A DNA stretch of 38,111 nucleotides. It comes from a virus. Where the stretch lies: positions 1 through 38,111 of the IMG/VR virus record IMGVR_UViG_3300043540_000263; one strand, 5' to 3'. Below are positions 2,551 to 38,111 of the stretch, one piece after another (the stretch's first letter is position 1; every line of letters begins with the position of its first letter). Under the pieces are notes generated by a model. That model had not been told where the DNA came from and made no database searches. It worked only from the letters and a program-made list of their open reading frames with translations. The position numbers were made by a program, and so were the translations under genes.

Positions 2551-3906
2551 ATGAAACCACAATATCACGACACCGCCGTTGTTACGTTTGGTAGGATGAA
2601 TCCTCCCACTCTTGGGCATCTAGCGATAATAAACAAAGTCGCAGAAATAGCGAAAGCGCTAGATGCAACTGGGAGAGTATATTTATCACAGTCCCAAGAC
2701 CCAAAGACAAATCCTTTATCCGAAAGAGATAAGTACAGATACATCTCAGCAGTGGCACCTGAAGGGGTAGAAATAGTTAGGAACAAAACATTCAAAAGTC
2801 TAGATACTGGACTAGTTAGGTCAGTTAAACATCCCTTTGACATGCTGACACAGTTGGCGCAAGAAGGATTCAAGATCGTTTATTTCGTAGTAGGTGAGAA
2901 TAGAGAAGGACACTATAACAGAATGTATGATTGGGCGAAACAAGTGGGACTGAGAGATTTTGAAATAGTAAATGTTGGGGAGCTTGCTAGGGGCGTTCAT
3001 GCTTCAGATTTAAGAAAATATGCCAAAGACGGCGACTTTGTAGCGTTCAGTAGAGGTTGCGCAGTAAAGGGCAATTTAGCTAGACAAATGTACAATGCTG
3101 TTCGCGCTGCACTTAATAAACCCGTGAAGAAAAAGTCACAGCTAGCCATCAAAAAAGAGTCGCTCGCTGTTACTCGTGCTCTTAACTCCATCTTACGAGA
3201 GTGCATTAATAGTGGCGTTTCTCCTCAAACGCTCCCCAAGTTCAACCACCTCAAAGAGGCTGCAAACAGAGAGGGTTTGGAATTTACCTCAGATTGTTAT
3301 GAAAAGATGCTTAATGCTGTAAATGCTTTTTTTGGCTTACCGCGAGGAATTACGCTACCATTAGTAGAGCAAGACCGTAATGTCCACACAAGATTAGAGA
3401 ATAAAACAAGAACACAGTTTAGACTATTTACGGAAAGCGAGTTGTCTCAAGCTACTAAGGCTTGGATTGAGAAAATAAGTTTTCTGTCTGACGATATCGC
3501 TAGTGTGTTACAGATAGCGTTACATTGGCCAGACGTTCTACAAATGATGGCTGATGACAAAGCTATGTTTAAGCTAGACAACGTTAATCATTATCTGGGC
3601 GAAATGCTTGCCGTAGCTAAGTTTATTAAGGAAGACTCCGTAATAAGAGGCGCGCTTCTCGCTAATGGTGAAGAAGGTGCCAAGACATTGTTGGAACTTA
3701 TCGAAGTGATGGTAATTTTGCATGATAGTCGCGTCAATTACAGAATGCTAAAAATTAACCATGCTCACTACAAGCAGCTTCTGTGGAAGGCAAAGCAGCT
3801 AGCTGTTACTGTTTGCAAAGCGCTTGCGGACGCCTACACAAATCTAAAAACAAATGAGCAGTTACCAGAGGACGAACACACAAAAATTTTTGGAACCTCA
3901 AACTAA
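2551..3906 (+). CDS. Cytidylyltransferase-like nucleotidyltransferase with a long helical C-terminal extension
   Basis: The N-terminal ~190 residues show the HIGH-superfamily nucleotidyltransferase fold. GRMNPPTLGH at residues 14-23 is the nucleotide-binding (T/H)xGH motif. GVHASDLRKYA at 149-159 corresponds to the C-terminal ISSTxxR-type motif. LSERDKYRYI near 56-65 is typical of the NMN-adenylyltransferase-like branch. Related proteins occur in many T4-like phages, where the substrate is generally unknown. The remaining ~260 residues are mostly alpha-helical and unrecognised, so this is a fusion or a phage-specific elaboration. I chose the ATG at 2551; GTG 2542 and TTG 2530 are in-frame alternatives. 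A 26-codon mini-ORF at 2465-2545 overlaps GTG 2542 as GTGA and could couple translation, but nothing else supports it. Confidence 0.8.
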   Translation: MKPQYHDTAVVTFGRMNPPTLGHLAIINKVAEIAKALDATGRVYLSQSQDPKTNPLSERDKYRYISAVAPEGVEIVRNKTFKSLDTGLVRSVKHPFDMLTQLAQEGFKIVYFVVGENREGHYNRMYDWAKQVGLRDFEIVNVGELARGVHASDLRKYAKDGDFVAFSRGCAVKGNLARQMYNAVRAALNKPVKKKSQLAIKKESLAVTRALNSILRECINSGVSPQTLPKFNHLKEAANREGLEFTSDCYEKMLNAVNAFFGLPRGITLPLVEQDRNVHTRLENKTRTQFRLFTESELSQATKAWIEKISFLSDDIASVLQIALHWPDVLQMMADDKAMFKLDNVNHYLGEMLAVAKFIKEDSVIRGALLANGEEGAKTLLELIEVMVILHDSRVNYRMLKINHAHYKQLLWKAKQLAVTVCKALADAYTNLKTNEQLPEDEHTKIFGTSN

Positions 3907-3941
3907 AGAATTAAGAGGTAGTGTAAACGGTTTTAGTTGGA

Positions 3942-3949
3942 GAATATAC
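3942..3949 (+). promoter_or_regulatory. Late-type GAATATAC element at the left border of the TnpB gene
   Basis: GGAGAATATACAAG ends only a few bases before the tnpB ATG, so a transcript initiated from it in the usual position would lack a tnpB leader. It may be the original promoter of the downstream gene at 5.3 kb, displaced when the element inserted, or the tnpB start may lie further in. Confidence 0.35.
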
Positions 3950-3953
3950 AAGT

Positions 3954-5255
3954 ATGCCACTCAAGGGTTTTTCATACCGAATTTATCCGACGCCTGAGCA
4001 AGAAGTCTCGATTAAAAAGGCTTTTGGTGTTGCTCGATACGTGTATAACTGGGCATTGGACCTTAGACAAAATGCCTATAAAGAAACAGGCAAAGGATTA
4101 ACTTGGTGTCAAATCAGCAAGGCACTCACGACACTTAAACAAGAATATTCATGGCTTAAAGAGACAGAACGCAGCGCTTCTCAGTACTCAATTATACATC
4201 TCACGCAAGCCTATGCTAATTTCTTCAGGCGACTCAAGGAGGGTAAAAAAGGTAAGGCTGTTGGATTTCCTACCTACAAAACCAAGAGAGACAATAAACA
4301 GTCATATAGCACGTGCGCACGATATATTAAGGTACTTGACAACGCAATCAATCTTCCGACATTGGGTCTAGTAAAAGCTAGAATTCACAGACCTATTGAG
4401 GGACATATCAAATCAGTAACAATCAAAAGAATGCCAACTGGTAAATACTTTGCGTCTGTGTTGTGTGATGCTCCAGAGACAACCAAACTCCCTGAACGTA
4501 ACACTGCTGTAGGCATTGATTTAGGGTTGCATACATTTGCTACGCTAAGCACGGGTGAGAAAATCAACTTGCCTGAGTCGTTGTATAGGGCAGATAAGAA
4601 AATCAGGAAGGCTAACAGGGAGTTGCACCATCGGGTCAAAGGTAGTAAAAACAGAGCCAAAGCACGAATCAAATTAGCAAAGGCTTATGAAAAACTTAAG
4701 AATCGCAGAGAAGACTTTCAGCATAAACTGTCTCTCAAGCTCGTTCGTGAGAACCAAGCGATTGGGCTTGAGACGTTAGCAGTGCTGAATCTTATGCGGC
4801 GCAGAAAGACTGGCAAGAAAAGCAAGAAAAGCAAGAAAACGGGCAAGGAAATCACACATAGAGGACTAGGTAGAGCTTTTGCACTAGCGGCTTTTGGTGG
4901 ACTCATTCATAAAATTGGATATAAGGCTGATTGGTATGGAACTTACATTGTTTATTCTGACAGATTCTACCCTAGCTCGCAACTTTGCCATTGTTGCGGT
5001 TATCAAAACTCGCTTGTTAAAGATCTCAAGATACGTGAATGGATCTGCCCAAAATGCCATGCTCACCACGACAGAGATATCAATGCTGCGCTAAATCTGT
5101 TAGGTGAAGTACTGAAAGTCTTTCCAGAACTGACTCAAAATAGGGATGGGATATCCCGAATCAACGCCTGTGGAGATTTGACCTCTACTCACTCCCTAAT
5201 AAGGTTTGAGCAAGCCACGTCGCTGAAGCAGGAAATCACTGGCTTAAGTCAGTGA
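3954..5255 (+). CDS. tnpB: RNA-guided nuclease TnpB of an IS200/IS605-type element (no TnpA)
   Basis: Full-length TnpB of 433 residues. The N-terminal helix-turn-helix starts with the usual KGFSYRIYPTPEQE. The RuvC-like catalytic residues are intact: D189 in GIDLGL, E273 in GLETLAVLNL, and the final Asp in HDRDINAALN at 372-381. A zinc ribbon is formed by C345/C348 and C365/C368. In known systems TnpB uses an omega RNA from its own 3' end and cuts DNA beside a short adjacent motif. The 3' end here has the conserved SLKQE stretch followed by a hairpin that runs past the tandem stop TGA TAG. No TnpA transposase is present, so it is either an IS1341-like element or a domesticated phage gene. It interrupts a run of virion-type genes. 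Confidence 0.93.
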   Translation: MPLKGFSYRIYPTPEQEVSIKKAFGVARYVYNWALDLRQNAYKETGKGLTWCQISKALTTLKQEYSWLKETERSASQYSIIHLTQAYANFFRRLKEGKKGKAVGFPTYKTKRDNKQSYSTCARYIKVLDNAINLPTLGLVKARIHRPIEGHIKSVTIKRMPTGKYFASVLCDAPETTKLPERNTAVGIDLGLHTFATLSTGEKINLPESLYRADKKIRKANRELHHRVKGSKNRAKARIKLAKAYEKLKNRREDFQHKLSLKLVRENQAIGLETLAVLNLMRRRKTGKKSKKSKKTGKEITHRGLGRAFALAAFGGLIHKIGYKADWYGTYIVYSDRFYPSSQLCHCCGYQNSLVKDLKIREWICPKCHAHHDRDINAALNLLGEVLKVFPELTQNRDGISRINACGDLTSTHSLIRFEQATSLKQEITGLSQ

Positions 5256-5263
5256 TAGTCCAC
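5223..5263 (+). repeat. TnpB right end with hairpin (copy A)
   Basis: The segment contains CTGAAGCAGGAAAT, then the imperfect palindrome ATCACTG, GCTTAAGT, CAGTGAT, then AGTCCAC. A related 41-bp copy lies at 28872-28912. The position at the 3' end of tnpB matches the right end and omega-RNA scaffold of IS200/IS605 elements; any guide would begin just after it. Confidence 0.65.
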
Positions 5264-5272
5264 TACCGGACG

Positions 5273-9705: not shown

Positions 9706-9734
9706 TTTCGGAGGCATAACATAATTTGGATATA

Positions 9735-9765
9735 GGGCGAGGCTAAAAACCTCGCCCATTTTGTT
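9735..9765 (+). terminator. Intrinsic terminator
   Basis: GGGCGAGG, 7-nt loop, CCTCGCCC, then ATTTTGTTATT. It closes the operon ending with the acidic/Arg-rich gene. The same hairpin, loop included, recurs at 10196-10218. Confidence 0.9.
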
Positions 9766-10161: not shown

Positions 10162-10195
10162 GTAGCTACGGAACGTCTATAACAAGCAATACAAA

Positions 10196-10227
10196 GGGCG
10201 AGGCTAAAAACCTCGCCCATTTATTTT
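10196..10227 (+). terminator. Intrinsic terminator, duplicate of the one at 9735
   Basis: GGGCGAGG, loop CTAAAAA, CCTCGCCC, then ATTTATTTT. Stem and loop are identical to those at 9735-9757. It ends the small early-type gene. Confidence 0.9.
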
Positions 10228-28230: not shown

Positions 28231-28875
28231 ATGGGAGTTCTCAGAGAAGTACTTATGCTAGAAGCAGCCTCAGTAGGCACATCCGAGACGACAGGCGCTA
28301 CGACTGTTCAGGGTGTCTTTCAGGTGGCTGATTCTCCTAATGCTAATCGTCGTGTGTATCCGTTTGATATACTGCTGGCAGAAACCAAACGACTACAAGA
28401 GATATGTAAAGTTCGAGGTCTTTTTGGTGAATTAGACCATCCTTGGTACAGTGGTGACGGTGCTGAGGCAGAGGCAGCTATTATTCACGCCAAGACTGTA
28501 TCGCATCTTATCACAGCCTTGTGGAATGAGGGCAAAATATTTTACGGAAAGCTTGAGCTTTTAGATACTCCGATGGGTCTCATTCTTCAGGAAATTATCA
28601 ATAAGAAATGTCAAATAGGCGTGTCTTCTCGATCTCTTGGTGGCGTGCGGTCTGGAGCCAATGGATTTTCCTATGTAGAGGCTGACGGTTTTCGCATAAT
28701 CTCTTTTGATGCCGTCATTGGTCCTTCAGTTGTTGAATCAAAACTACAGACAGTGCGTGCTATGAAAGAGTGGTCAGAGTTATCTGGTGCGTTGATAAAA
28801 GAGACGACCGAGGAAGCAAAACAAGATATCAGGAAAGATATTAGAAAAATGATAAGGCAGATAATGTTTGACTGA
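28231..28875 (+). CDS. Prohead maturation protease, T4 gp21-like
   Basis: A 214-residue serine protease of the gp21/herpesvirus-assemblin clan. GELDHP (about residues 66-71) holds the catalytic His, GVSSRSLGGV (about 130-139) the nucleophilic Ser, and FDAVIGPS a downstream conserved stretch. In T4 the enzyme is incorporated in the prohead core and cuts core, portal-associated and capsid proteins after Glu in (L/I)xE sites. The start is 1 nt after the previous stop, with GGGAGG upstream. It is directly followed by an isolated copy of the TnpB right-end hairpin. Confidence 0.92.
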   Translation: MGVLREVLMLEAASVGTSETTGATTVQGVFQVADSPNANRRVYPFDILLAETKRLQEICKVRGLFGELDHPWYSGDGAEAEAAIIHAKTVSHLITALWNEGKIFYGKLELLDTPMGLILQEIINKKCQIGVSSRSLGGVRSGANGFSYVEADGFRIISFDAVIGPSVVESKLQTVRAMKEWSELSGALIKETTEEAKQDIRKDIRKMIRQIMFD

Positions 28876-28912
28876 AACAAGAAATTACTGATTTAGGTCA
28901 GTGATAGTCCAC
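28872..28912 (+). repeat. Isolated TnpB right-end-like hairpin (copy B)
   Basis: The 41 bp match the tnpB right end at 5223-5263 at 35 positions; all six differences are transitions. The hairpin is kept: ATTACTGA pairs with TCAGTGAT, with one T-G pair that is a wobble in RNA. AGTCCAC follows in both. No tnpB frame precedes it; instead it starts inside the stop region of the protease gene. It could be an insertion scar or a solo right end. Confidence 0.6.
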
Positions 28913-28930
28913 GATGTCGAAGCAAGTAAA

Positions 28931-28953: not shown

Positions 28954-30048
28954 ATGGCAAAATCTACTAGAGCAACGGAAAAAAAAGTAAGCCCAAAAAA
29001 GACTGTGCTCAAAGAAGCACAAGAGCTAGAACCACAGGGCAGTCCGTTAAGTGACTTACAAAAAATGGTAGCAGAGGAAGTTGCTCCTTTGCGTGAAAGT
29101 TTGAATCGTCTCACCGAGGAGAATGCTCAGCTAACAGACAGCACGACTACGCTCAAGGCTAGCTTAGCTGCCGCAGAGAAAAAGGTCAAGGATTTGATGC
29201 TCGAAGCTTCGGGGCTATCAGAGAAATTGAAAAATGTTACCGCTGTGGCTAAAGAGGCTGCTAAAGAAAATGCCATGCTTAAAGAGGCAATAGAGACTAT
29301 CAAAAAACGTAATGTTAGACTTATTTCTGAAATGAAAGCCATCAATGAATCAGCATCTAAACGTATTAAGCTTGCCGTGGAGAAGGCAGAATCAGACAAG
29401 CAGGCATTCATACATTCAGTCACTGAAAGTTTGGAGAAACAAGTAGGACAACTACTCCATGAGGCTTTCAGTGGAGCAAAAATGTTGTTTGAATCAGATA
29501 TGAGTGCAGTACAAACGGACCTGCTATCTGATCTTGGAAACCTATTGCTGCCTTATGTCAATGACCCATCGTTGCCTCGTCGCACCGAGACGTTACGTAA
29601 AGCTATCAAGGAAGCGAAGGAAGAGCTTGTTAAATCTGCTCGTAATTTCAAAGAGTATCAATTGAAAAAAGACGCAGAAACCAAAAAACTTCTGACCAAA
29701 CTGACAGAAGCAAACAAGCTGTTACAAGAAGCCAAGTTTAACAAATATAAGGACAATCTTGTTAAAAATTTACCTGAAACTATAAGGAATTTTGCAAGAG
29801 AGAAATTGAATGAAGCAAAAAATGTTGAAGATGCGAAGAATATACTACAGACAATCATCCGAACATCCTCCGCCACAGGTGGGATTAAAACTCCTCCTAA
29901 GCCCGTGGTGGTTACAGAGGCTGAACAAGCCCAGGGCGGTGATAATCGGGTGGAAGCACTTCTTCGAGAATCCCTCGGACGTACCGAGGTAGATGCCACA
30001 GTTGATCCTGAGTTACTCAAACTCGCGGGCATCTCGAAGAGAAAGTAA
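28954..30048 (+). CDS. Prohead core/scaffold protein, gp22-like coiled coil
   Basis: A 364-residue, almost wholly helical protein with long coiled-coil heptads (about 45-160 and 225-300), Lys/Glu/Ala-rich. It lies directly between protease and major capsid protein, as gp22 does in T4. It would form the core on which capsid protein assembles and then be degraded. LKE at 19-21 before Ala, and several later LxEA sites, fit gp21-type cleavage. The ATG at 28954 has AAGGAG 8 nt upstream; an in-frame TTG 15 nt earlier is less likely. The assignment is by position and composition. Confidence 0.82.
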   Translation: MAKSTRATEKKVSPKKTVLKEAQELEPQGSPLSDLQKMVAEEVAPLRESLNRLTEENAQLTDSTTTLKASLAAAEKKVKDLMLEASGLSEKLKNVTAVAKEAAKENAMLKEAIETIKKRNVRLISEMKAINESASKRIKLAVEKAESDKQAFIHSVTESLEKQVGQLLHEAFSGAKMLFESDMSAVQTDLLSDLGNLLLPYVNDPSLPRRTETLRKAIKEAKEELVKSARNFKEYQLKKDAETKKLLTKLTEANKLLQEAKFNKYKDNLVKNLPETIRNFAREKLNEAKNVEDAKNILQTIIRTSSATGGIKTPPKPVVVTEAEQAQGGDNRVEALLRESLGRTEVDATVDPELLKLAGISKRK

Positions 30049-31951: not shown

Positions 31952-33757
31952 ATGGAAAAAAGATTTTGTAAAATATGTCATAAAAAAATTCCCGAAACTA
32001 TGGGTTACAGAGCTGTCACCTGTGGATCTAAAGAATGTTTGCTACAAGTCAAACGCACACGACAAACGCAAACAAAAGTTTGTCCACAGTGTCATAAAGA
32101 GTTCCAGACGAAAACAGCGAAAAGTATTTATTGCAGTCGGTATTGCAAAAACGTAGCTCGTTATTTAGCTGGTAAAGATCGGGCACCGAAGAAGTGTGAA
32201 AGATGTGGTAGAATGTTTTTTTCAAGGCCAGGCTCCTCTCGAACGCTGTGCCAGGATTGTTTTACCGATAAAAGTCGGTTGCAAAAAGAAGAGCTAGATA
32301 AGAAGCTAGCAAAGTTTGAAGGGCAGGAAAGCATTACCTGTCGCATTTGCAATACTTTGTTCTTGAGTGGTGAAATAACTGGCAAACATCTAAAGAAACA
32401 TAATTTGACACCAAGTCAATATAAAGAGCAATTTGGCGAAGATTCGTTATGGTCAAGCACTAGACGACAGGTAAAGCTTGAGCAATTAAATCGGGCAAGA
32501 CAGCAAAGGGTAAAAACTAGCACATCTCAAACTCGAACTTGTGCTTATTGTGGGAAGCCGCTTTCTCCAAACCAGTCAAAGCGGGTCAATACATGTAGTC
32601 GTGCTTGTGGATATGCTTTGCGAAAACAGAAAACTGCTGAACGTATCAAATACTGTAAAGTTTGCAATAAGCCTATAGACTTTGGTGTCCGCGATAGACG
32701 ATCTAGGACGTGCTCTGTAGAATGTGAGCGTGCAGCAATAGGGATGAGAAAACCAACCTTGAGAGTGTGCCAATCCTGCGGCAAAACGTTTGAAAGTAGG
32801 GCATCAAAAGCTTATGCTTGTCTAGAATGTCAATCAAAACTGCATCAACTAAAACAAGGCAGAGTCGTAAAAATTTGTAGCAAATGCGGTCGGGAGTTTT
32901 TATCTACATCTGAATCTAACGACCTCTGTAAGACGTGTTTTAGAAACAAGGACCGTCAAGAAGAAAAGGTTAAAGCGAAGTTTGCTGGTATCGAGCCTAT
33001 ACAATGTCGTATATGTGGCAAAGTGTTTGCTGGGGGTTTGTTGACTAACACGCATCTAAAACTTCACAACATTACGCAAGCGCAATACAAGGCTAAATTT
33101 GAATCTGAGGGACAGCATGTTTTGTATTCATCGTCGAGACACCTTCGACAAAATCAGCAGCTTCAAAAGGTTAATCCCCAATTTGACGATACACACATCA
33201 AGGCACGTGAAGAAGCGTTACGGAAATATGAAGAGTTGCAGCCAAAATGTGCTTTTTGTCATAAGTTGTTGCCACTGAAAAAGTTCATGCAGTATTTTAG
33301 CCAGAAAAAACAAGGAAACAAATGGGAAGACAAGCCTAGATTTTGTAGTACCAAGTGTCGAGGTTCGTATTATATCAGTGACGAGTTTCACAAAATTGCT
33401 CCTCACAAGTATTTAAGACCTCGGAGTAAAAATGAGAAAGCAATAGAACAGTGGCTTCGCACCAATTTTCCAACCTTAGAATTGATAACAAATGACAGGA
33501 CACAGCTAAAACCTTACGAATTAGACATTTATATTCCCCAATATCGAATGGGGATTGAGTACGAAGGTCCGCTGCATTATGAGCCAATTTTTGGAGAAAA
33601 ACGCTTTCACAAGGTACTAGAAACTGACGCAAAAAAGGTAGCTCTTGCCGCCGAAAAAGGCATCTCGCTCATTATTATAGATGGCAGAATCAAGTCTTTT
33701 GAAGAGCAGATAGCGCCACTCAAAGCCGCATTAGCCTCTGTTCTTCCTCCATCTTGA
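31952..33757 (+). CDS. Multi-zinc-finger protein with C-terminal Vsr/EDxHD-like nuclease domain (candidate homing endonuclease)
   Basis: A 601-residue protein. About ten Cys-pair zinc knuckles cover residues 6-470 (for example C6/C9, C44/C47, C82/C85, C197/C200, C235/C238, C273/C276, C309/C312, C433/C436). Two Ros/MucR-like fingers, CRICNTLFLSGEITGKHLKKH (130-150) and CRICGKVFAGGLLTNTHLKLH (352-372), lie in two ~100-residue halves that are clearly duplicated. The C-terminal domain (488-580) has E495, ELDIYI (D525), GIEYEGPLHY (E536, E538, H542), D559 and K561/K562, then LIIID. That is the Vsr-like PD-(D/E)xK fold also used by EDxHD homing enzymes. AGGAGG precedes the ATG. Its place next to the capsid gene suits a free-standing homing endonuclease. 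Confidence 0.82.
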   Translation: MEKRFCKICHKKIPETMGYRAVTCGSKECLLQVKRTRQTQTKVCPQCHKEFQTKTAKSIYCSRYCKNVARYLAGKDRAPKKCERCGRMFFSRPGSSRTLCQDCFTDKSRLQKEELDKKLAKFEGQESITCRICNTLFLSGEITGKHLKKHNLTPSQYKEQFGEDSLWSSTRRQVKLEQLNRARQQRVKTSTSQTRTCAYCGKPLSPNQSKRVNTCSRACGYALRKQKTAERIKYCKVCNKPIDFGVRDRRSRTCSVECERAAIGMRKPTLRVCQSCGKTFESRASKAYACLECQSKLHQLKQGRVVKICSKCGREFLSTSESNDLCKTCFRNKDRQEEKVKAKFAGIEPIQCRICGKVFAGGLLTNTHLKLHNITQAQYKAKFESEGQHVLYSSSRHLRQNQQLQKVNPQFDDTHIKAREEALRKYEELQPKCAFCHKLLPLKKFMQYFSQKKQGNKWEDKPRFCSTKCRGSYYISDEFHKIAPHKYLRPRSKNEKAIEQWLRTNFPTLELITNDRTQLKPYELDIYIPQYRMGIEYEGPLHYEPIFGEKRFHKVLETDAKKVALAAEKGISLIIIDGRIKSFEEQIAPLKAALASVLPPS

Positions 33758-34942: not shown

Positions 34943-34982
34943 CTTGTCTTTGACGCAGTTAATAACATAACCAATATGGAAA

Positions 34983-35011
34983 AGCCTCCCTGTTGAATAT
35001 TGGGAGGCTTC
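34983..35011 (-). terminator. Terminator of the minus-strand small gene (module copy 1)
   Basis: AAGCCTCCC and GGGAGGCTT flank an 11-nt loop; on the minus strand the stem runs into TTTTCC. A nearly identical hairpin with the same flanks occurs at 36622-36650 below a paralogous gene. Confidence 0.65.
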
Positions 35012-35042
35012 GCCGTGGTACAGAGGAGGGAGGTTCCTGTAA

Positions 35043-35252
35043 TTACTTTGGCCGAGGTACTTCTCTAGCCACTATTTCAAAATATCTACTGTCCTTGTTG
35101 ACAGATTTAGTAGTGTCGTCTAGGCGAGGGTAGAGTTTAGCGAGATCCCAGTAGTTTTGGATATCCTCTTCAATACGTTTAAGAAATTCTGTCATTTCTT
35201 TGTCTGTCATTTTACTCTGTACTACATATACTGTCCTCTTTGTTTTGGTCAT
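35043..35252 (-). CDS. Small early-type protein, intact paralogue of the broken gene at 36.8 kb
   Basis: A 69-residue basic protein starting MTKTKRTVYVVQSK and ending REVPRPK. GAGGAGAC lies just upstream of the ATG, with an early-type promoter about 25 nt before that and its own terminator below. No family is recognised. A diverged copy with the same promoter, terminator and C-terminal EVPRPK lies 1.6 kb away, so the whole unit was duplicated. W34 of this protein aligns with the internal TGA of that copy. Confidence 0.8.
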   Translation of the reverse strand: MTKTKRTVYVVQSKMTDKEMTEFLKRIEEDIQNYWDLAKLYPRLDDTTKSVNKDSRYFEIVAREVPRPK

Positions 35253-35274: not shown

Positions 35275-35303
35275 AGTATAGCACAAACTTTTGGACATTG
35301 ACT
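35275..35303 (-). promoter_or_regulatory. Early-type promoter AGTCAA-N17-TATACT (minus)
   Basis: On the minus strand, AAATTTCG precedes AGTCAA; after a 17-bp spacer comes TGC TATACT (extended -10). It drives the 69-residue gene. Confidence 0.75.
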
Positions 35304-35349
35304 CGAAATTTGGTCTTTATCGGTATAAAGATGAAAATACCAAAAAGCA

Positions 35350-36302: not shown

Positions 36303-36331
36303 AGTATAGCACAAACTCCTAATCATTGACT
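36303..36331 (-). promoter_or_regulatory. Early-type promoter AGTCAA-N17-TATACT with no ORF behind it
   Basis: It has the same AAATTTCG-AGTCAA, 17-bp spacer and TGC TATACT as the promoters of the small minus-strand genes, but no coding frame follows on the minus strand. Confidence 0.7.
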
Positions 36332-36365
36332 CGAAATTTGACTTTTTGCGGTAACTCGGTCTAGC

Positions 36366-36612: not shown

Positions 36613-36621
36613 GATATAGAA

Positions 36622-36650
36622 AAGCCTCCCTGCTAGATATTGGGAGGCTT
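36622..36650 (-). terminator. Terminator, module copy 2
   Basis: AAGCCTCCC and GGGAGGCTT around an 11-nt loop; on the minus strand it is followed by TTTTC. The flank CGCCGTGGTAC and the following GGAGGGAGGTTCCT are shared with the copy at 34983, showing a duplicated unit. Confidence 0.65.
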
Positions 36651-36682
36651 CGCCGTGGTACGAAGGAGGGAGGTTCCTATAA

Positions 36683-36904
36683 TTACTTCGGTCTAGGCAC
36701 TTCTTTGGCTGTGGCTGTTATCTTGAAGCACTTAGCGTTGATATCATTATCGAGCGCGCTGTCTTCGGGCAAGTAATATAAGTCATAATTTTCTCAATTG
36801 TTTAGGATATCGCGTTCAATACTTACAAAAAACTTTGACATCTCCCTGTCTGTTCTTTTGCCGTATGCCACGAATAAGGATTTATCCAACTTTGCTTTGC
36901 TCAT
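36683..36904 (-). pseudogene. Diverged paralogue of the 69-residue gene with one internal TGA
   Basis: The minus-strand frame runs 73 codons from MSKAKLDKSLFVAYG to KEVPRPK and TAA, broken only by TGA at codon 37 (after RDILNN). TDREMSKFFVSIERDI matches TDKEMTEFLKRIEEDI of the intact gene at 35043-35252. Between the shared DI and the shared Phe (29 positions, no gaps) the TGA aligns with W34 of that protein. It keeps an early-type promoter and a terminator. So it is either a recent nonsense mutant (TGG to TGA) or is expressed by TGA readthrough. Standard decoding would give a 36-residue fragment. Confidence 0.75.
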
Positions 36905-36923: not shown

Positions 36924-36952
36924 AGTATAGCACAAACCTTTGAACATTGACT
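36924..36952 (-). promoter_or_regulatory. Early-type promoter AGTCAA-N17-TATACT (minus)
   Basis: AAATTTCG-AGTCAA, 17-bp spacer, TGC TATACT on the minus strand, just upstream of the TGA-interrupted paralogue. The promoter is intact although the gene is broken. Confidence 0.75.
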
Positions 36953-36965
36953 CGAAATTTGGTCT

Positions 36966-37176: not shown

Positions 37177-37205
37177 AGTATAGCACAGACCTTTGAATAT
37201 TGACT
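37177..37205 (-). promoter_or_regulatory. Early-type promoter AGTCAA-N17-TATACT (minus)
   Basis: On the minus strand: AAATTTCA-AGTCAA, 17 bp, TGC TATACT. It drives the 62-residue gene and stands back to back with the plus-strand promoter at 37216. Confidence 0.75.
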
Positions 37206-37215
37206 TGAAATTTGG

Positions 37216-37244
37216 AGTCAATACTCAAAGTTCTATGATATACT
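37216..37244 (+). promoter_or_regulatory. Early-type promoter AGTCAA-N17-TATACT (plus)
   Basis: AGTCAA at 37216-37221, 17 bp, TATACT at 37239-37244; divergent from the promoter at 37177-37205 with only 10 bp between the two -35 elements. It serves the HNH gene. Confidence 0.72.
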
Positions 37245-37264
37245 GTCGACGTAGGAGGAGACGG

Positions 37265-38111
37265 ATGAACGAAGTAGAAAAAACATTAGTCAAGCAAGAC
37301 GGACGTGCATCTGGGGAATTAACATTCACTAGGTCGAGAGCACCGAATCTCGAAGGGCAAAGATTTGGTAAATTATTGGTACTTCGACGAGTTTCAAACA
37401 GACAAGTGAAGCATAGGACCTATGCTCAGTGGCTTTGTAGATGTGATTGTGGTAGAGAAATTGTTACCTTTTCCAGTGCACTTCGTTCAGGGAACACTAG
37501 AAGTTGCCACTGTTTACTGCGTAAGTCGTTATCAGCAGTAAAGAATCTTAAAGGGCAAAGATTTGGGAAATTATTAGTGCTAGAAAGAAGTCGGACTGGC
37601 TGGTTCTGTCGTTGTGATTGCGGAAACGAAATTGTTGTGCCTAGGCACAAATTGCTAATTGGAAAAATTGATCGTTGTAGAGAGTGTGCAAAAACACAGC
37701 TTCCCGCTAACAGAAAAACAGCATTTGAGTATCTGTTTACTACGTTTTGTCAAAACGCAAAAAATCAAAACCTAAGACAGGAGCTTTCAAAAGAAAAATT
37801 TTATGAACTTAGTACTCAACCGTGTTATTATTGTGGTAAAGCGCCTTCTAACGTGCTTGCGCCTAAAAGTGCGCACGATACATTCATCTACAATGGCATA
37901 AACAGAGTTGACGGCAGAATAAAAGCGTATACTATTGACAACTCTGTCCCAGCGTGTAAAGCCTGTAACTACGCTAAGCATGGGCAAACTCCTGACTATT
38001 TTCGTGAGCTAGTTATAAAGGTTTACAATACACTTGTTGTTCAAAAACGTTCTCCTGCTGTTTATGCGAGCGAGTTGCTTAAAATACCAGACATTGAGTT
38101 ACCTCAGTCTC
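37265..38111 (+). CDS. HNH homing endonuclease with two zinc-ribbon repeats (3' end beyond window)
   Basis: The frame is open for 282 codons to the window edge. GGAGGAGAC precedes the ATG. Two N-terminal repeats, LEGQRFGKLLVL (29-40) with WLCRCDCGREIV and LKGQRFGKLLVL (95-106) with WFCRCDCGNEIV, are zinc-binding DNA-recognition modules common in phage homing enzymes. The catalytic region holds CYYC (187-190), NGINRVDGRIKAYTIDNSVPAC (210-231) and CKACNYAK (231-238), the zinc-containing HNH/beta-beta-alpha-metal pattern. It would cut a specific site and promote its own spread. The early-type promoter means it is expressed independently of late genes. The stop codon is not visible. Confidence 0.87.
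   Translation, partial: MNEVEKTLVKQDGRASGELTFTRSRAPNLEGQRFGKLLVLRRVSNRQVKHRTYAQWLCRCDCGREIVTFSSALRSGNTRSCHCLLRKSLSAVKNLKGQRFGKLLVLERSRTGWFCRCDCGNEIVVPRHKLLIGKIDRCRECAKTQLPANRKTAFEYLFTTFCQNAKNQNLRQELSKEKFYELSTQPCYYCGKAPSNVLAPKSAHDTFIYNGINRVDGRIKAYTIDNSVPACKACNYAKHGQTPDYFRELVIKVYNTLVVQKRSPAVYASELLKIPDIELPQS

Follow-up and report, generated by a model that had tools for sequence, protein, structure and literature searches.

A 41-bp right end of an IS200/IS605-type tnpB element, probably a relic, at the 3' end of the head protease gene of a T4-like phage

The window analysed here, a viral stretch of 38,111 nucleotides (IMG/VR record IMGVR_UViG_3300043540_000263), is a contig of a T4-like phage that encodes a Peptidase_S77 protease, a Gp23 capsid protein, a T4-type terminase and a portal. 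A tnpB element lies at 4-5 kb, and its 41-bp right end (RE) recurs once more, as a solo copy, between the protease gene and the gene in the position of the scaffold gene (Table 1). What, then, is an isolated TnpB right end doing between two structural genes of a phage head? An earlier note on this DNA had offered three possibilities, namely the scar of a second element, a stand-alone omega-RNA scaffold and a mobile miniature. Our results favor the first of these, since the similarity stops at both RE borders and the site shows neither a tnpB remnant nor a recognisable left end. We conclude that the 41-base piece is probably the relic right end of a lost second tnpB-type insertion sequence, which most likely shortened the phage protease.

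Table 1. Features of the window that bear on the solo right end.
Feature	Position	Strand	Basis or remark
tnpB, 433 aa, RuvC residues D/E/D present, no tnpA	3954..5255	+	Pfam OrfB_IS605, Cas12f1-like_TNB
Candidate pseudoknot partner GTGGA, able to pair with TCCAC at the RE end	5170..5174	+	
Intact tnpB RE, forming the 3' portion of the omega-RNA	5223..5263	+	
gp21-like prohead protease, stop codon 28873-28875 inside the solo RE	28231..28875	+	Pfam Peptidase_S77, phrog_207
Solo RE, probable relic: TGAAACAAGAA motif, 9-bp hairpin, AGTCCAC terminus	28872..28912	+	35/41 to tnpB RE; family RE layout
Subterminal hairpin: stem 28884-28892 with 28897-28905, loop 28893-28896	28884..28905	+	Fold, stem scan
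16 nt at the TnpB guide position (GATGTCGAAGCAAGTA), scaffold-gene leader	28913..28928	+	Perfect match also in the sister contig
Gene in scaffold (gp22) position, between protease and major capsid protein	28954..30048	+	Position only; synteny with cyanophages; no PHROG match

The two copies have the same orientation and share 35 of their 41 bases; the other six positions differ by transitions (G-A, G-A, C-T, G-A, C-T and A-G). The earlier note is correct in its counts, coordinates and strand. The chance ceiling is far lower: when the window was shuffled 60 times under a first-order Markov model, the best ungapped match to the 41-mer reached 25/41, and the third-best real match in the window (27/41) lies on the reverse strand of the tnpB element itself. 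Identity between the copies is at background level immediately 3' of GTCCAC and immediately 5' of CTGAA, and a repeat search of the window returned the pair as a stand-alone two-copy family. Both copies form the 9-bp stem. The hairpin had been described as preserved by a wobble pair; the stem is indeed kept, but its three changes, all in the 5' arm and all pairing-preserving, amount to two wobble replacements (C-G to U-G in each case) and one repaired wobble (G-U to A-U). Folding predictions give -14.9 kcal/mol to the tnpB copy and -8.7 to the solo one. None of the differences falls in the last 16 bases (p 0.04 under random placement of the six changes), which faintly suggests that the end of the element is or was under constraint.

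Both 41-mers were compared with the right ends of 15 related tnpB loci. In tnpB relatives from plasmids, phages and genomes the right end is composed of a TTGAAGCAGGAA- or ATGAAACAAGAA-like motif, a hairpin, a TCAA or TCAC terminus and then unrelated flanking sequence, and a layout with a TGAARCARGAA-type motif is shared by related TnpBs of Nostoc, Bifidobacterium, enterobacterial plasmids and phages. The solo RE carries this 5' motif adjoining its subterminal hairpin; among the 15 loci the arrangement is clearest in Nostoc and Bifidobacterium and looser elsewhere, and TGAAACAAGAA is itself an RE motif of the family (Bifidobacterium, locus L028). At the other border, both 41-mers end in GTCCAC and diverge from there, at 5264 and 28913, and the copies of multi-copy elements in Holdemanella and enterobacteria diverge exactly past their TCAA or TCAC terminus. 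Since both 41-mers fit the family layout, including the 5' motif TGAAACAAGAA, the solo copy is, judged from its sequence, a canonical right end of an IS200/IS605-type tnpB element.

The order of parts (TGAARCARGAA-type motif, hairpin, TCAA/TCAC-type end, unrelated flank) is that of the right ends of ISDra2, ISEc46 and the Nostoc and Bifidobacterium copies. Unlike these, the solo copy has no tnpB, no upstream omega-RNA scaffold and no recognisable left end, and the 3' end of a phage protease gene is joined to it. The ORF list around 28.9 kb contains neither tnpA nor tnpB, which bears out the earlier note on the absence of tnpB from this site. The RE at 5223-5263 shares the stem and terminus with the solo copy, but the functional context, a tnpB and a pseudoknot partner, is found at that RE and not at 28.9 kb. 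The resident TnpB can be aligned over its length with TnpB proteins of solved structure (8bf8) and keeps the catalytic residues. No recognisable left end was seen by eye at 3880-3953, and the resident element may therefore be immobile or domesticated.

Searched for exact copies of GTCAGTGATAGTCCAC, viral contigs yielded three matches, all of them outside an RE context, and a degenerate RE pattern had no match. Rfam returned nothing at the gathering threshold and chance matches only below it, and in Nostoc plasmids chance partial motifs were seen but no solo RE. Apparent truncated tnpB copies beside right ends in Holdemanella biformis were dropped as a relic precedent, since the sequence upstream consists of runs of N.

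The RE begins at the last protease codon and its TGA is the protease stop codon, a point on which the earlier note was silent. Measured from a conserved EW, the protease tail is 36 residues long in the window phage and in its sister phage, versus 45-48 residues in all 73 relatives in which the EW could be located, so that about nine residues are missing. The F..FL..L ending found in 71 of these 73 relatives is absent from both phages. Across T4-like phages, tail length (45-48 aa after the EW) and the F..FL..L end of the gp21-like protease are almost invariant. Such a nearly invariant tail suggests a functional C-terminal helix, which would be lacking in this phage pair. Read-through past the RE would add DVEASKEYI and a stop, giving a tail of 45 residues, the commonest length in relatives. 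We did not use this as evidence because the added residues bear no resemblance to F..FL..L and, by our own estimate, such a stop would arise by chance with a probability of about 0.1.

The sister phage is the one close relative in the viral collection, a 21-kb contig with ~90% nucleotide identity to the window over 12.4 kb. At the junction the sister has GTTTGACTAAAACAAGAAAGCACTAGTTAG, followed like the window by GATGTCGAAGC; the sister protease terminates at the same codon, with TAA instead of TGA. It retains CTAAAACAAGAAAGCACTAGTTAG, aligned with the 5' half of the tnpB RE, without GTCAGTGATAGTCCAC; the 3' arm and the terminus are missing, and the solo hairpin is not conserved. Over their full length, the 24 junction bases of the sister can be aligned with the 5' half of the resident tnpB RE (Markov p 0.0017), and the 11 bases after AAA give p 0.0018 when compared with that RE by themselves. 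In an unfiltered scan, 71 of 20,996 sister 24-mers score as well against the tnpB RE, and support for an RE remnant in the sister is therefore moderate. The available 21 kb show no similarity to tnpB. The contig does not include the locus of the resident element, and no relative was found for the gene flanking that element. Because the sister keeps the 5' half of the RE and a stop at the same codon, it has most likely arisen by deletion and does not represent an empty site. Thus the search for an empty protease-scaffold junction that the earlier note suggested led, in the only close relative, to a partly deleted RE.

From these observations we infer an insertion followed by a deletion. A second tnpB element of the IS200/IS605 type, of the kind found at 4-5 kb and then still complete, would have inserted at the 3' end of the gp21-like protease gene in the common ancestor of the window phage and its sister. 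A later deletion would have taken the left end and tnpB, thereby joining the protease reading frame to the RE, whose 5' motif would have provided the stop codon. The RE would have drifted since, with six transitions now separating the copies, and in the sister a further deletion would have removed the 3' arm and terminus. Most simply, a single insertion and truncation would have preceded the divergence of the two phages, and the sister would afterwards have lost the 3' half. A match far above chance, direct orientation and an end exactly at the RE terminus all support a relic. No recognisable left end or tnpB fragment survives at the site, and the original element is reconstructed from 41 bases. 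The order of events depends on a single comparison with the one close relative in collections (p ~0.002), protease clades could differ in tail length for unrelated reasons, and the unchanged last 16 bases could mean constraint on the RE end.

The solo RE is a further example of an already known kind, the decayed IS605-type end; ends-only and decayed IS605 copies have been described in Halanaerobium (PMC7290912). As in the ends-only, PATE-like relics of Halanaerobium hydrogeniformans, a decayed IS605 copy would have been cut down to its ends. The H. hydrogeniformans copy, however, keeps 28 nt of the left end and 58 nt of tnpB (PMC7290912), whereas ours consists of 41 nt of RE only and lies in a phage structural operon.

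It is unlikely, though conceivable, that the relic has been retained as a cis-acting RNA hairpin, serving as a stabiliser of an mRNA 3' end, a processing site or a brake between the synthesis of protease and that of scaffold. Such a role would fit the position between two structural genes, the survival of stem pairing through three changes and the RNA z-score of the solo 41-mer (-1.7). Three pairing-preserving transitions are, however, expected by chance about 1 time in 4 by our own estimate, and the hairpin has no T-run, in contrast to the real terminators of this phage. Furthermore, the 3' arm is lost in the sister, which argues against an important role. Most likely, the solo RE serves no purpose today other than to supply the stop codon of the protease and some of the leader.

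Absence of the hairpin and terminus from the sister would also follow if the sister were the original empty site, the RE a recent arrival in the window phage alone, and the shared CTRAAACAAGAAA host sequence similar by chance. We regard this as distinctly improbable: the shared stretch and GCACTAGTTAG together can be aligned over their full length with the 5' half of the RE (p ~0.002), TGAAACAAGAA is itself an RE motif of the family in Bifidobacterium, and the sister protease is truncated at the identical codon.

A third reading takes the solo copy as a stand-alone omega-RNA, in which the RE forms the 3' scaffold hairpin and the scaffold-gene leader the guide, so that TnpB acting in trans would cut related phages at this site. 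A TnpB with an intact catalytic triad is encoded on the same contig, the RE end and hairpin are intact in the window phage, and the six changes between the copies spare the 3' 16 nt. Additionally, the 16-mer at the guide position is perfectly matched in the sister, where it lies beside the non-RE sequence AGTTAG, and an exact 21-mer from the guide position was found in the sister contig only. A guide-position match to a relative is, however, expected for any RE at its own insertion site. The similarity between the copies is limited to 41 nt, whereas processed omega-RNAs across surveyed TnpB orthologs measure 79-466 nt (PMC10278001). The scaffold of the ISDra2 omega-RNA is 116 nt long and its end pairs with positions -102 to -106 (PMC10097598). 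In a test for a scaffold of ~100 nt with an upstream partner for the RE end, the resident RE has a perfect 5-bp partner, GTGGA, at -94, and in several relatives the partner is GAAC (-79 to -93); upstream of the solo copy, by comparison, there is no partner of at least 4 bp at -135 to -75. The hairpin is also gone in the sister. A guide RNA at this site is thus very improbable. One elaboration, in which transcripts of the late structural operon bring the solo RE to the phage TnpB, the protease 3' end acting as scaffold and the guide directing cuts in the capsid operon of co-infecting relatives, is more improbable still. If true, such a guide would be a phage weapon against relatives. The earlier idea that a TnpB using two ends could target relatives lacking either insertion finds no support, the known relative carrying a partly deleted RE.

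Scarcely credible is a mobile miniature, a non-autonomous PATE-like element with both ends that is moved by a trans-acting Y1 transposase. PATE-like ends-only IS605 copies are known (PMC7290912), but here protease coding sequence homologous to that of other phages reaches the RE, with no recognisable left end. The left-end layout of the family (GCCGTAA, hairpin, TATAAGGCG; loci L012, L026 and L028) was not seen by eye on the left flank of the tnpB copy or of the solo copy, inspection of the window showed no tnpA, and there is one copy per genome.

We rejected an ordinary intrinsic terminator, the outcome that the earlier note attached to a hairpin present in tnpB-less phages and unlike other TnpB right ends: there is no T-run, AGTCCACGATG comes next, a terminator scan made no call, the RE matches those of other TnpBs, and none of the 77 related protease junctions has such a hairpin. 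A TATAAAT element is present at 49 of these 77 junctions.

The relic right end would mean that an IS605-type element got into the best-conserved region of a T4-like phage genome and shortened its head protease for good, leaving a fossil that can be dated relative to the sister phage. It also calls for caution, as an isolated TnpB right-end hairpin is not automatically a guide RNA. An upstream pseudoknot partner and decay in sister phages are the checks that separate a relic right end from a guide RNA.

Several other repeats and genes were seen in the window. Four copies of AGTATAGCACAAAC..TTTGAACATTGACTCGAAATTTGG lie beside small minus-strand ORFs (35275-35313, 36303-36341, 36924-36962 and 37177-37215); reversed, the repeat contains a TATACT box, and the copies are therefore likely a family of minus-strand promoters. 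A 96-nt repeat, 86% identical between its copies at 34974-35069 and 36614-36709, forms a G+C-rich hairpin and is also present in the sister contig. Identical 28-nt terminator-like hairpins, AGGGCGAGGC..GCCTCGCCC, stand on either side of a small ORF at 9734-9761 and 10195-10222. Finally, a 601-aa zinc-ribbon protein (31952-33757) is encoded 3' of the major capsid gene and an HNH-like protein (37193-38110) at the contig end, both possibly further mobile or homing genes.
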